A DNA stretch of 64,000 nt from Bradyrhizobium sp. NP1 (lineage in GTDB: Bacteria; Pseudomonadota; Alphaproteobacteria; Rhizobiales; Xanthobacteraceae). Every line of letters begins with the position of its first letter. The stretch's first letter is position 1. Location of the stretch: positions 5,248,001-5,312,000 of the forward strand of contig NZ_CP127385.1 of NCBI RefSeq assembly GCF_030378205.1, given 5' to 3'. Positions 47,568 through 53,040 of this stretch are shown piece by piece. The notes below the pieces were generated by a model. It was given only the letters and a program-made list of their open reading frames with translations, did no database searches and was not told where the DNA came from. The translations under genes and the position numbers were made by a program.

Positions 47568-48782
47568 ATGGCAAAAATCAAGGTGAGCAACCCCGTCGTC
47601 GAACTCGATGGCGACGAGATGACCCGGATCATCTGGCAGTCCATCAAGGACAAGCTGATCCTGCCGTTCCTCGACGTTCAGCTCATCTATTTCGACCTCG
47701 GGATCGAGTATCGCGACAAGACCAACGACCAGGTCACCGTGGATGCCGCCAACGCGATCAAGAAGGTCGGCGTCGGCGTCAAATGCGCCACCATCACCCC
47801 GGACGAAGCGCGGGTGAAGGAGTTCAACCTGAAGGAAATGTGGAAGTCGCCGAACGGCACCATCCGCAACATCCTGGGCGGTGTGATCTTCCGCGAGCCG
47901 ATCATCTGCAAGAACGTGCCGCGGCTGGTGCCCGGCTGGACCAAGCCGATCATTATCGGCCGTCATGCCTATGGCGACCAGTACCGCGCCACCGACATCA
48001 GGTTCCCGGGCAAGGGCACGCTGTCGCTGAAATTCGTCGGCGAGGACGGCACCGTGATCGAGAAGGAAGTGTTCAAGGCGCCCGGTTCCGGCGTCGCGAT
48101 GGAGATGTACAACCTCGACGATTCCATTATCGACTTCGCCCGCGCCTCCCTCAACTACGGCCTGATGCGCGGCTATCCGGTCTATCTCTCGACCAAGAAC
48201 ACGATCCTCAAGGTCTATGACGGCCGCTTCAAGGACATCTTCCAGGAGATCTATGATCGCGAGTTCAAGAAGGAGTTCGAGGCCAAGGGCCTGACCTACG
48301 AGCACCGCCTGATCGACGATATGGTCGCGTCCGCGCTGAAATGGTCCGGCGGCTACGTCTGGGCCTGCAAGAACTATGACGGCGACGTGCAGTCGGACAC
48401 CGTGGCGCAGGGCTACGGCTCGCTCGGCCTGATGACCTCGGTGCTGCTCACCCCGGACGGCAAGACCGTGGAAGCCGAAGCCGCCCACGGCACGGTGACG
48501 CGGCACTACCGCGAGCACCAGAAGGGCAAGGAGACCTCGACCAACTCGATCGCCTCGATCTTCGCCTGGACGCGAGGTCTCGCGCATCGCGCCAAGCTCG
48601 ACAACAACGCGGAGCTGGCGAAGTTCGCTTCCACGCTCGAGAAGGTCTGCGTCGAGACCGTGGAGTCCGGCTACATGACCAAGGACCTGGCTCTCCTCGT
48701 CGGCGCCGACCAGCGCTGGCTCTCCACCACCGGTTTCCTCGACAAGGTCGCGGAAAATCTTCAGAAGGCGATGGCGGCGTAA
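47568..48782 (+). CDS. icd: NADP-dependent isocitrate dehydrogenase
   Basis: 404-aa enzyme of the TCA cycle, oxidising isocitrate to 2-oxoglutarate and CO2. It belongs to the eukaryote-like homodimeric subfamily: [54 protein letters not shown] and [18 protein letters not shown] with metal and cofactor contacts. Monocistronic, divergent from trmJ. Confidence 0.97.
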
Positions 48783-49460: not shown

Positions 49461-49943
49461 TCAGGTGAGAGCCTTCACCAGTCTCGGCTCGCGCTGATGG
49501 ATGCCGCGAAACTCGGACTCGCGGACCGTGCCGTCGCGCCGGTATCCTGCGGCCTCGTAGACGGCGATCGCCCTTTCGTTCTGCTCATGCGTGTAGAGGA
49601 AGACTTCGCGGCAGCCTGCAGCCCGCAAGACATCATGTGCGGCTGCCAGCAGCGCGCGTCCGATGCCGCGGCCGGCATGCTCGGGATGCACGAACAGCAG
49701 GTACATCTCGCCTTCTGTGGGATGCACGGCAACGAAGCCGGTCAGCCGATCCGCCTCATTGATTGCGACCAGCAGGGCATTCGGCGGCGCGTGCCGGGCC
49801 ACCTCTTCGTCCCACTCCTCCGGCGGGAACATCGGCCGCTCGGCGAGCTCGCCGAGATATTTCCACCCCTCGCGCACGGCCGCGTCGAACACAGCGCCGA
49901 TCGCCTGCGCATCGTCAGCTTCGGCGCGCCTGATGGTGATCAC
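49461..49943 (-). CDS. GNAT family N-acetyltransferase
   Basis: 160-aa acetyltransferase. Acetyl-CoA motif A is VHPEHAGRGIGRALLAAA; motif B region is NERAIAVYEAAGYRRDG. Starts at GTG 49943 with GGAG 7 nt upstream. Substrate not predictable. It is the gene downstream of the alaS 3' end on the same strand. Confidence 0.92.
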   Translation of the reverse strand: MITIRRAEADDAQAIGAVFDAAVREGWKYLGELAERPMFPPEEWDEEVARHAPPNALLVAINEADRLTGFVAVHPTEGEMYLLFVHPEHAGRGIGRALLAAAHDVLRAAGCREVFLYTHEQNERAIAVYEAAGYRRDGTVRESEFRGIHQREPRLVKALT

Positions 49944-50021: not shown

Positions 50022-50129
50022 TCAGGCGTCAGCCATCGCCTTTTCAATCGCCGAGAGCGCGGCGTCCGCCTTGGCGCCGTCGGGCCCGCCCGCCTGTGCC
50101 ATGTCCGGCCGCCCGCCGCACAAGGCCAT
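50022..50129 (-). pseudogene. Displaced native alaS C-terminal fragment
   Basis: Reading on the minus strand, this frame encodes [21 protein letters not shown] continuing [11 protein letters not shown] and a TGA stop. That is a second AlaS C-terminus, parallel to the [18 protein letters not shown] segment that now ends the intact gene only 9 bp upstream. It has high-G+C codon use like the surrounding core genes, unlike the tract now ending alaS. Interpreted as the original gene end left after a foreign alaS tail was recombined in. Confidence 0.8.
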
Positions 50130-50137
50130 AATCTCCA

Positions 50138-52834
50138 TTACTCACTCTTGGCTGTGACGGAGATGGGCTGAACTAGCTGCTTGATCTTCTCAAGCGCCTC
50201 CCTAGCACCTGCCGGGTTATTTCCGCCTCCCTGAGCAAAGTCCGGCCTTCCGCCGCCTTTGGAGCCCCCTAAAAATGGGACGCCAGCTTGTACCAACTGC
50301 ACGGCGTTATTGGACGACGTGAGATTAGACGTCACCGACACAACTAGACCTGCTTTGCCGTCATCCGAACTCGTAGTCAGAATGACTACCCCAGAATCAA
50401 GCCGCCTCTTGTAGTCATCAGCAATGCTGCGAAGATCACTAATTTTCACATTGTGTAACTCTTTCGCAATCACCTTCACTCCATGAATCTCTTCTATGTC
50501 GGAAGTAGTACCCGCAGAAGTACCGCCCATTGCGAGCTTCTTCCGAGCGTCCGACAACTCGCGCTCTAGCTTTCTGCGCTCCTCCATCAACGAGGCAATA
50601 CGCTCCGGCACATCGTCCAGCGTCGTGCGCAGCTCGTGGGCTGCGGCCTTTGCCAGCGCCATGGTGTCGTTAGCATGCTTACGCGCATGTCGCCCCGTCA
50701 GGGCCTCGATACGGCGGACACCAGAGGACACCGCGGCCTCGCTGGTGATCGAAATGAGCCCGATATCTCCGGTGCGCCTGACATGGGTGCCGCCGCAGAG
50801 CTCGACCGACCAGCCGAGCGCGTTCTGACCGTGCTCGCGGTCGCCATTGCCCATCGACACCACGCGGACCTCGTCGCCATATTTCTCGCCGAACAGGGCG
50901 CGAGCGCCGGCTTCGCGGGCCTCGTCCAGCCCCATCAGCCGCGTCGTCACCTCGTCATTCTCCAGCACCACCTCATTGGCGATGTCCTCGACGCGGGTGA
51001 GTTCTTCCGGGCTGATCGGCTTCGGATGCACGAAGTCGAAGCGCAGGCGGTCCGGCGCGACCAGCGAGCCGCGCTGGGCGATGTGGTCGCCCAGGACCTG
51101 CCGCAATGCTTCGTGCAGAATATGTGTTGCCGAATGATTTTTCCGAATGTCACTTCGTCGACTATGGTCGACCTCGAGCCTTATCGCATCGTTCAATCTG
51201 ATGCCGCCCTTGATGACCTTGACGTTGTGAACAATAAGATCATCTGCCTCTTTGTGACACGTAAGGACCTGCGCGATGGTCTCACCATCAGACGCCCGCT
51301 TGATCCAGCCTACATCGCTTACTTGGCCGCCAGACTCGGCATAAAATGGGGTTTGGTTTACTATTATCTCACCGGCTTCACCGCCCCTCAATTCATTGAT
51401 CTCAGGGCCACCCTTTATAATTGCTGTGACGATACCTTCGCTGGTCTCGGTGTCGTACCCAAGAAACTCCGTCGCACCGAGCCTTTCGCGCAACGGAAAC
51501 CAATAGTCCGCAGTTTTTGTGTCGCCGCTGCCCGCCCAGGCAGCGCGCGCCTTCTCGCGCTGGCGGTCCATCGCATCGGTGAACGAGGTGATGTCAACGC
51601 CGACGCCGCGCGACTTCAGCGCGTCCTGCGTCAGATCGAGCGGGAAGCCGTAGGTGTCGTACAGCGTGAAGGCGGTGTCGCCGTCGAACATGTCGCCTTT
51701 CTTCAGGCCGGCGCTCTTTTCATCGAGAATCGCAAGCCCGCGCGCCAGCGTTTTGCGGAAGCGCGTCTCTTCCAGCCGCAGCGTCTCCTCGATCAGCTTC
51801 TCGGCGCGCACCAGCTCCGGATAGGCCTGCCCCATCTCGCGCACCAGCGCCCAGACCAGGCGATGCATCAGGGGGTCATGCGCACCCAAAAGCTGCGCAT
51901 GGCGCATCGCGCGGCGCATGATTCGGCGCAGCACATAGCCGCGGCCTTCGTTCGACGGCAGCACGCCGTCCGCGATCAGGAAGGCCGAAGAGCGCAGATG
52001 GTCGGCGATGACCCGGAACGACGCGACGGTCTGCTGCTTCGGTCCATGCCCGAGGGCGGAAGCGGTCGCATCGATCAAATGACGGAAAAGATCGGTGTCG
52101 AAGACGCTGTCGACGCCCTGCAGGATGCAGGCCATGCGCTCCAGCCCCATGCCGGTGTCGATCGAGGGGCGCGGCAGCGGCACGCGCTCTTCCTTCGTCA
52201 CCTGCTCGAATTGCATGAACACGAGGTTCCAGAATTCGAGGAAGCGGTCGCCGTCCTCCTCGGGGCTGCCCGGAGGTCCGCCCCAGATGTGGTCACCCCG
52301 GTCGATGAAGATCTCCGAGCACGGGCCGCACGGGCCGGTGTCGCCCATCGCCCAGAAATTGTCCGAGGTCGCGATGCGGATGATGCGGTCGTCGGAGAAG
52401 CCTGCGATTTTCTTCCAGTAGCGCGCCGCGTCATCGTCATTGTGGTAGATGGTGACGAGCAGCTTGTCCTTCTTCAGCCCGAAATCCTTGGTGATCAGGT
52501 CCCAGGCGAGCTCGATCGCGCGTTCCTTGAAGTAGTCGCCGAAGGAGAAGTTGCCGAGCATCTCGAAGAAGGTGAGATGGCGCGCGGTGTAGCCGACATT
52601 GTCGAGGTCGTTGTGCTTGCCGCCGGCGCGGACGCATTTCTGCGAGGTGGTGGCACGCTGATAGGGGCGCTTCTCGACGCCCGTGAAGACGTTCTTGAAC
52701 TGCACCATGCCGGCATTGGTGAACATCAGGGTCGGGTCGTTGCGCGGCACGAGCGGAGACGACGGCACGATCTCGTGACCGTTCCGGGCAAAGAAATTGA
52801 GAAAAGTCGACCTGATCTCGTTGACGCCGCTCAT
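50138..52834 (-). CDS. alaS: Alanyl-tRNA synthetase, mosaic gene
   Basis: 898-aa class II synthetase charging tRNA-Ala. Aminoacylation core: [39 protein letters not shown]. Editing domain with zinc-type ligands: [12 protein letters not shown] and ELCGGTH. The C-Ala domain ends VSVTAKSE. ATG 52834 (MSGVNEIRS) is used. Two stretches, about 50138-50600 (residues about 745-898) and 51120-51530 (about 435-571), are visibly lower in G+C and codon bias than the rest, yet the reading frame is unbroken. A second, native-like C-terminus lies downstream. This points to import of homologous DNA from a different lineage. Confidence 0.95.
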
Positions 52835-53040
52835 GTTCATCCAATCGGGAAAATAGGCCGGGACCCGCTCTTTGCAGGCCATTCTCCGGGCAACAGGCTT
52901 TTAGACAAGGCCAACCCTGCTGTCCAGAAACTGTGCTGGCGGATCATGGACTTGAACGTCGTCCGGACGTCCTTCGGGGGTCCGGTCGGGCCGCCCTTGG
53001 GCGGTGCATCAAAGGGCCGTTGATAGCGGTCTGACCCGCG

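Follow-up and report, generated by a model that had tools for sequence, protein, structure and literature searches.

The alaS locus and its surroundings

The window, that is, the whole stretch of 64,000 nucleotides that was analysed (G000:C1:5248001-5312000), lies in a 7.7 Mb genome held in one contig. In the list of open reading frames, alaS, which encodes an alanyl-tRNA synthetase (AlaS) of 914 amino acids, occupies positions 50138-52882 on the minus strand. Its product carries the Pfam domains tRNA-synt_2c (residues 22-574), tRNA_SAD (672-726) and DHHA1 (802-904) in the order expected for AlaS, all above the Pfam cut-offs. It also contains HSATH at residue 583 and CGGTH at residue 696, which fit the HxxxH and CxxxH patterns that we take to be the editing motifs of AlaS, and the glycine motif GGGRPDFAQ at residue 876. 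A search of the genome found this gene as its sole AlaS match. Because it is the only copy, the hybrid enzyme described below is presumed to be active.

The neighbour behind alaS is icd (47568-48782, plus strand, from the same list), which is convergent with alaS, as in most surveyed regions, and bounds a variable alaS-icd interval. Within this interval, the alaS stop is followed by a spacer of 18 nt (50137-50120, minus strand) and then by an orphan native alaS 3' end of 98 nt including the native stop codon (50119-50022, minus strand), recognised by its DNA identity to native genes. Junction and orphan tail together are listed as an ORF of 38 amino acids (50022-50138, minus strand). Farther on lies a GNAT acetyltransferase gene (49461-49943, minus strand, assigned by Pfam), a neighbour outside the mosaic. 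This gene and its flank sit between the alaS remnant and a DUF3455 gene, and the gene had no match in the other 87 alaS-icd regions. A glycine riboswitch aptamer (RF00504, 53085-53173, plus strand, 66.5 bits) is ordinary, and the ORF downstream of it is presumably gcvT.

Four blocks of different ancestry in one alaS gene

Segmentation of alaS with two states and hand-set mismatch rates, over sites conserved in 31 native genes (L006 was left out), revealed a mosaic of native, foreign, native and foreign blocks, all on the minus strand. Native block A (residues ~12-451, 52848-51531) has a mismatch of 3.2% and native block C (residues ~598-787, 51091-50523) one of 6.9%. Foreign block B (residues ~452-597, 51529-51092), located between the catalytic fragment and the editing core, has a mismatch of 32%; HSATH falls in a conserved stretch at its edge. 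Foreign block D, the C-Ala/DHHA1 domain (residues ~787-914, 50522-50142, stop codon at 50140-50138), has a mismatch of 43%. When each of the 31 controls was left out in turn, a foreign segment was called in three; in two of them it covers 8 and 20 sites where the gene begins, and in the third, L033, it lies at cds 1429-1680, inside block B. In 40-residue windows over 29 genus genes (L006, with 6 amino acids extracted, gave no values), median amino acid identity is 0.82-0.97 for residues 31-430 and 571-760 and falls to 0.47-0.68 at 421-580 and 0.40-0.62 at 781-910. GC3 is 85-91% over residues 1-425, 78% over 426-470, 57, 50 and 68% over 471-572, and 74-80% over 573-780; in the neighbouring icd it is 90%. 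For residues 781-820, 821-860 and 861-914 it is 45, 55 and 61%, and G+C is 45-59% in the 120-bp windows starting from 50120 to 50480. An earlier, sequence-only reading of this DNA had noticed that alaS ends in a lower-G+C tract, and these values confirm it. It had placed the start of the tract at 50640 (residue 745), which the segmentation moves to 50522 (residue ~787). It was also right that C-Ala was replaced, but C-Ala is not the sole replaced part, since residues ~452-597 are foreign as well, with native sequence between. The tail border at residue 787 lies just ahead of DHHA1 (802). The start of block B, at 452, is just past the solved AlaRS catalytic fragment 3hxu, which aligns up to residue 448. 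Both exchanges therefore follow domain borders.

Trees of each block were built from 62-70 proteins (A, residues 20-425; B, 431-572; C, 576-755; D, 765-914; L116 was dropped as short), and several of their supports are below 95. In block A, the window is inside a 28-row Bradyrhizobium clade (SH-aLRT 98), and in block C it shares a clade of 38 rows with the full set of 23 Bradyrhizobium loci (support 92). In block B, it is on the divergent side (support 94) with type-2 rows and none of the 23 Bradyrhizobium loci, next to P0005, P0121, P0122, P0124, P0004 and P0181, the last of which is labelled Bradyrhizobium sp. R2.2-H. In block D, the window and P0002-P0006 form a 6-row clade (support 98), in which P0006 has a long branch and odd composition. 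This clade nests in a 14-row clade (99) with MAG proteins, e.g., P0018, labelled Pseudolabrys, and is apart from all 23 Bradyrhizobium loci (support 100). The isolate Pseudolabrys sp. Root1462 (L048) is on the ordinary side of the tail tree, and thus the label 'Pseudolabrys-like' for the tail rests on the labels of MAGs (P0018, P0019 and others). AU tests rejected the grouping of the window with native Bradyrhizobium in block D (p 3.1e-7; L182 and L184 were excluded from the native group) and with the Bradyrhizobium loci in block B (p 4.8e-7), and its grouping with Pseudolabrys-like rows in block A (p 2.8e-5) and block C (p 2.2e-4). These p values are nominal, because the groups were picked after inspection of the trees. 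Trees and AU tests together thus assign the native blocks to Bradyrhizobium and group the tail with proteins from metagenomes and from MAGs labelled Pseudolabrys. It was also observed that the block A tree splits the genus into two clades, and that identity to the window is bimodal across the genus for AlaS residues 121-250, at ~92% or ~72% (the low group includes, e.g., L121, L122, L186 and L187). The bimodality, noted over residues 121-430, and the split in the tree hint at another exchanged block.

Among the best 120 of 1094 matches to the full tail, P0002, a metagenome protein, is closest to the window (83%), followed by P0003 and P0004 (81% each), P0005 (73%) and P0006 (71%). The others reach at most 71%, and tails from Pseudolabrys-labelled MAGs are mostly 60-63%. 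No closer donor of the tail was found among 391 sampled family genomes, of which 368 matched, the best besides the window being G569 at 63%; nor did the window genome hold a second alaS as a source of the tail. Within the genus, a native tail query matches 261 of the 265 genomes, and none of the 265 except the window genome shows its tail type. By its per-genome E-value G000 stands apart, as do G008, G149 and G246, whose odd tail is of another kind; G204, G227 and G236 are truncated by contig ends. The odd AlaS tails of G149, G008 and G246 (L182, L184 and L185) are 60-61% identical to the native query over its length, and these proteins are otherwise Bradyrhizobium-like. No old tail was seen behind them.

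The sequence-only reading had proposed that C-Ala came by recombination from another AlaS lineage. The mismatch of 43%, the trees and the AU test (p 3e-7) support this. It had further reasoned that a tail and downstream peptide shared by all close relatives, or the same placement of the two segments, would speak against the proposal; none of the other genus genomes has the tail, and the two segments are placed apart, the tail by trees and the AU test and the remnant by native DNA identity. We give almost no credence to an origin without transfer, by divergence of the tail in place or by its duplication within the lineage. G110 does have a tail duplicated at 99% identity, but between the tail of the window and native genes 43% of conserved sites differ, native placement is rejected (p 3e-7), the relatives with 71-83% identity are outside the sampled genus genomes, and GC3 changes abruptly. 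A frameshift or divergence in place was also considered as the source of the tail and rejected, as the tail and C-Ala of P0002-P0006 share in-frame homology (71-83%) and native placement is rejected.

Block B was matched in 263 of the 265 genus genomes, and G212 (73%) and G270 (67%) stand out, the rest being at most 62% among the matches listed. Closeness to the window extends to both B and D in P0004 and P0005, but is limited to D in P0002 and P0006 and to B in P0121 and P0122. Since B and D thus occur apart in relatives, two events are possible for these blocks. In A, B and C, the companions of P0006 (labelled B. oligotrophicum) are P0109, P0115 and P0062 (Bradyrhizobium), whereas in D it joins the window, on its long branch. 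This split placement points to an independent acquisition of the tail. P0004, P0005 and P0006 carry relatives of the foreign tail on Bradyrhizobium-like N-termini, and for this reason the immediate donor may have been another Bradyrhizobium. Ultimately, the tail stems from outside the ordinary type of the genus.

The orphan tail and the two joints

Directly behind the hybrid gene, positions 50119-50022 are 85-91% identical over 88-99 nt to Bradyrhizobium alaS 3' ends in the 25 best matches and run to the native stop, so that the native AlaS C-terminus already suspected after the alaS stop is indeed there. The best match is L015/G020 (90.9% over 99 nt). In each of the 25 best matches, some of which come from the same genome, native homology ends at 50119 on the alaS side. 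As a peptide of 31 amino acids, the remnant is 90% identical to the native tail with an E-value of 8.3e-10, which means that the match is not due to chance. It differs from L015 at 9 sites (1/1/7 by codon position), from L011 at 11 (1/1/9), from L016 at 14 (1/2/11) and from L010 at 18 (0/4/14); the count for L002 (48 differences) was out of register and was not used. The remnant remains in the native frame to the native stop and is therefore young.

The ATG of the 38-amino-acid ORF overlaps the alaS stop (TAATG). This ORF is in the native frame and the differences in the remnant sit at third positions, as they would if the orphan tail were a translated peptide, coupled through the overlap, that aids the hybrid enzyme. 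We regard this as hardly credible, because a recent origin accounts for the third-position bias, the old tails of other genomes are partly decayed (78-91% identity outside G110), and the ORF covers only the end of the domain: its DHHA1 match is weak (profile positions 72-101 of 102) and slightly below the Pfam cut-off.

Comparison with L015 defines what was exchanged. Native cds ~2340-2614 (L015 numbering) is gone, and 2615-2712 is kept behind a complete foreign end. Native sequence restarts within the glycine codons preceding RPDMAQ, 18 nt past the foreign stop; the spacer is presumably the 3' flank of the donor. The left joint of the tail (~50522) is in frame and inside long homology, and the right joint is at a non-homologous position. 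Because the native DNA starts again 98 nt short of its own stop and the gene end is thereby doubled, the right joint is illegitimate. Homeologous recombination, as the sequence-only reading had it, thus describes the left joint, which was made by homology, but not the right joint, which is not a homeologous crossover. A homologous joint at one end and an illegitimate joint at the other are what the account in PMC3240628 gives for homology-facilitated illegitimate recombination (HFIR). That account describes a laboratory reaction, whereas the window case is deduced from its product and concerns natural divergent alleles.

We therefore propose, with a probability of roughly 70%, that HFIR, seen as C-terminal displacement, made the hybrid alaS and the orphan tail. 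Incoming DNA with the 3' part of a divergent alaS would have hit a native Bradyrhizobium alaS. On the left side, a homologous crossover would have taken place within alaS around codon 787, where the C-Ala domain begins. On the right side, donor DNA 18 nt past its own stop would have entered the glycine-rich codons of the native gene, 98 nt ahead of the native stop, by a joint that needed no long homology. Such an exchange would yield a hybrid AlaS followed by an orphan native tail; that both joints of the tail go back to a single event is inferred. Residues ~452-597 were exchanged too, either as part of this discontinuous event or independently of it. As described in PMC13344027, natural transformation in B. 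subtilis gives discontinuous donor segments, so that B and D could share one exchange. Close donor segments with recipient DNA between them are reported there, as B and D flank C. In contrast to those genomes of ~90% identity, the blocks of the window are far more divergent and may have two donors.

Old alaS ends in other Bradyrhizobium genomes

The native tail query found a second alaS 3' end in six of the 265 genus genomes, namely G000, G023 (three matches), G110, G204, G242 and G275. In five of the six, the extra pieces are downstream of alaS on the same strand; in G204, they are split over two contigs. Old 3' ends of the displacement type, on the same strand, are thus present in the window, G110, G023 (two), G242 and G275. 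The old tail of G110 has 315 nt, is 99% identical to the new one and lies 3.8 kb downstream. G023 has two, 1.5 and 8.0 kb downstream; G275 has one of 87 nt at 1.1 kb and G242 one of 76 nt at 3.8 kb. The same architecture therefore recurs in these genomes, and in G110, G023 and G242 the new tail is separated from the old by 1.5-6 kb of other DNA. A Pfam scan of eight proteins from G110, G242 and G023 and of two window neighbours showed part of what this DNA encodes. In G110 it holds DarT, macro-domain and SocA/Panacea genes, which are intact and flanked by the duplicated alaS end (L111, 3197-7634) and are absent from the other 87 surveyed regions. In G242 it holds SnoaL and oxidoreductase genes. 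In G023 (L190, 2693-11095), the two old tails follow each other with different DNA between them. The first is preceded by an ion channel gene with a cNMP domain and the second by a CusB/HlyD-type gene, which looks like the outcome of two rounds of displacement.

Such cargo bears on how the short spacer of the window arose. Kilobases of cargo could have come with the foreign tail, a later deletion leaving 18 nt, and the other genus genomes with cargo between new and old tails agree with this. However, there is no trace of cargo in the 18 nt, and the undecayed remnant demands that insertion and deletion were both recent, so that an extra step is needed; we consider this history unlikely compared with direct joining by HFIR. 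Another explanation is a site-specific mobile element, now lost, that used the alaS 3' end as its attachment site and brought the replacement end. In its favour, there are integrative elements which rebuild the 3' end of the gene they target. Nevertheless, the old tails begin at differing points, about 315, 230, 137, 161, 75 and 98 nt before the stop, without a constant att core, and no integrase family was found among the eight cargo proteins and two window neighbours scanned. Block B, 0.5 kb upstream, cannot derive from such an element either. Overall, the mobile-element explanation is very improbable, and HFIR remains our preferred reading.

Empty sites in relatives, found for G110 and for G242/G054, also speak for HFIR. 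The DNA behind the old tail of G110 lies directly behind alaS in G038 (95%, offset 2). In G052, the flank of G242/G054 has its match 139-187 nt behind alaS. Of the 88 regions, 56 (G023 itself included) match the ion-channel stretch of G023, which begins 11 nt behind alaS in G108 and G070. For the window, no empty site was found, as the flank behind the remnant is unmatched in the other 87 regions. The flank behind the old tail is common to G242, G275 and G054, and these may represent one event. At least three events, those of the window, G110 and G023, were independent, and the G242 group is likely a fourth.

The survey of the alaS-icd interval comprised 89 regions, of which 88 were analysed (L250 of G027 was dropped, with no tail in the stretch fetched); G023, G110, G242 and G275 entered this survey because the native tail query had found them. 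None of 79 further analysable regions passed E 1e-6 with its own or a native tail. Only G054 is borderline, and it was not counted (30 nt, E 3.7e-7 with the window remnant and 1.8e-6 with its own tail). Queries made of five 420-nt segments of cds 1-2220 matched in 0 of 88 regions, indicating that only pieces of the 3' end recur. As a control, icd was searched in the same intervals, and a second 3' end was found in one of 84 loci. In this locus (L310 of G216), the full icd is followed, after 785 nt, by an old icd end of 75 nt with 80% identity. Since icd shows the same kind of remnant, alaS may not be unique in this respect. Among the 54 window ORFs of at least 120 amino acids, no same-strand C-terminal echo was found within 5 kb at E 1e-3. 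Strongly diverged tails escape this test; even alaS went unnoticed, because its new tail is foreign.

The displaced ends resemble those of known toxin systems. Kirchberger et al. (2017, PMC5361080) describe C-terminal displacement in T6SS effectors, in which old 3' ends are pushed downstream and for which HFIR was proposed, and cite the same for Rhs genes. In the cases covered there, as in alaS, a constant 5' part is joined to a new 3' part anchored on one side, with old ends downstream. The difference is that those genes encode polymorphic toxins with immunity genes, whereas alaS encodes an essential synthetase whose exchanged domain presumably keeps its function and whose cargo is unrelated or absent. 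The exchanged end is DHHA1/C-Ala rather than a toxin with its immunity gene, so that alaS works like the Rhs/T6SS toxin class and stands outside it. C-Ala is described in PMC10036535 as a tRNA-elbow-binding module. Homeoalleles of aminoacyl-tRNA synthetases, divergent genes of the same function that spread by transfer, are discussed by Andam and Gogarten (2011, PMC3191353); there they are whole genes, and in the window alaS they are segments of one gene. No report of this alaS locus was found in the open-licence PMC literature. The transfer of synthetase genes is a known phenomenon, and so are displacement scars; alaS adds a variation in which the two come together at an essential gene, repeatedly within one genus.

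C-Ala and the neighbouring AlaRS linker are exchangeable between lineages at about 40-60% amino acid identity without loss of the gene. The undecayed remnant keeps the ancestral sequence beside its replacement, and from this the polarity and relative age of the exchange can be read. A tentative extension, which we consider less likely than not, is that in Bradyrhizobium the 3' end of alaS captures DNA repeatedly and without an integrase, and that linker and C-Ala blocks circulate between lineages as sub-gene alleles. If this is true, DNA that brings its own alaS end would recombine by homology inside alaS, and whatever stands behind the incoming end, be it DarT/macro genes, efflux genes, an ion channel or nothing, would be trapped between the tails. 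An essential synthetase would in this way be reshuffled domain by domain. Displacement of 3' ends is known from polymorphic toxins, where diversity is selected. Its repeated occurrence at an essential housekeeping gene suggests a general, integrase-free route of gene capture.
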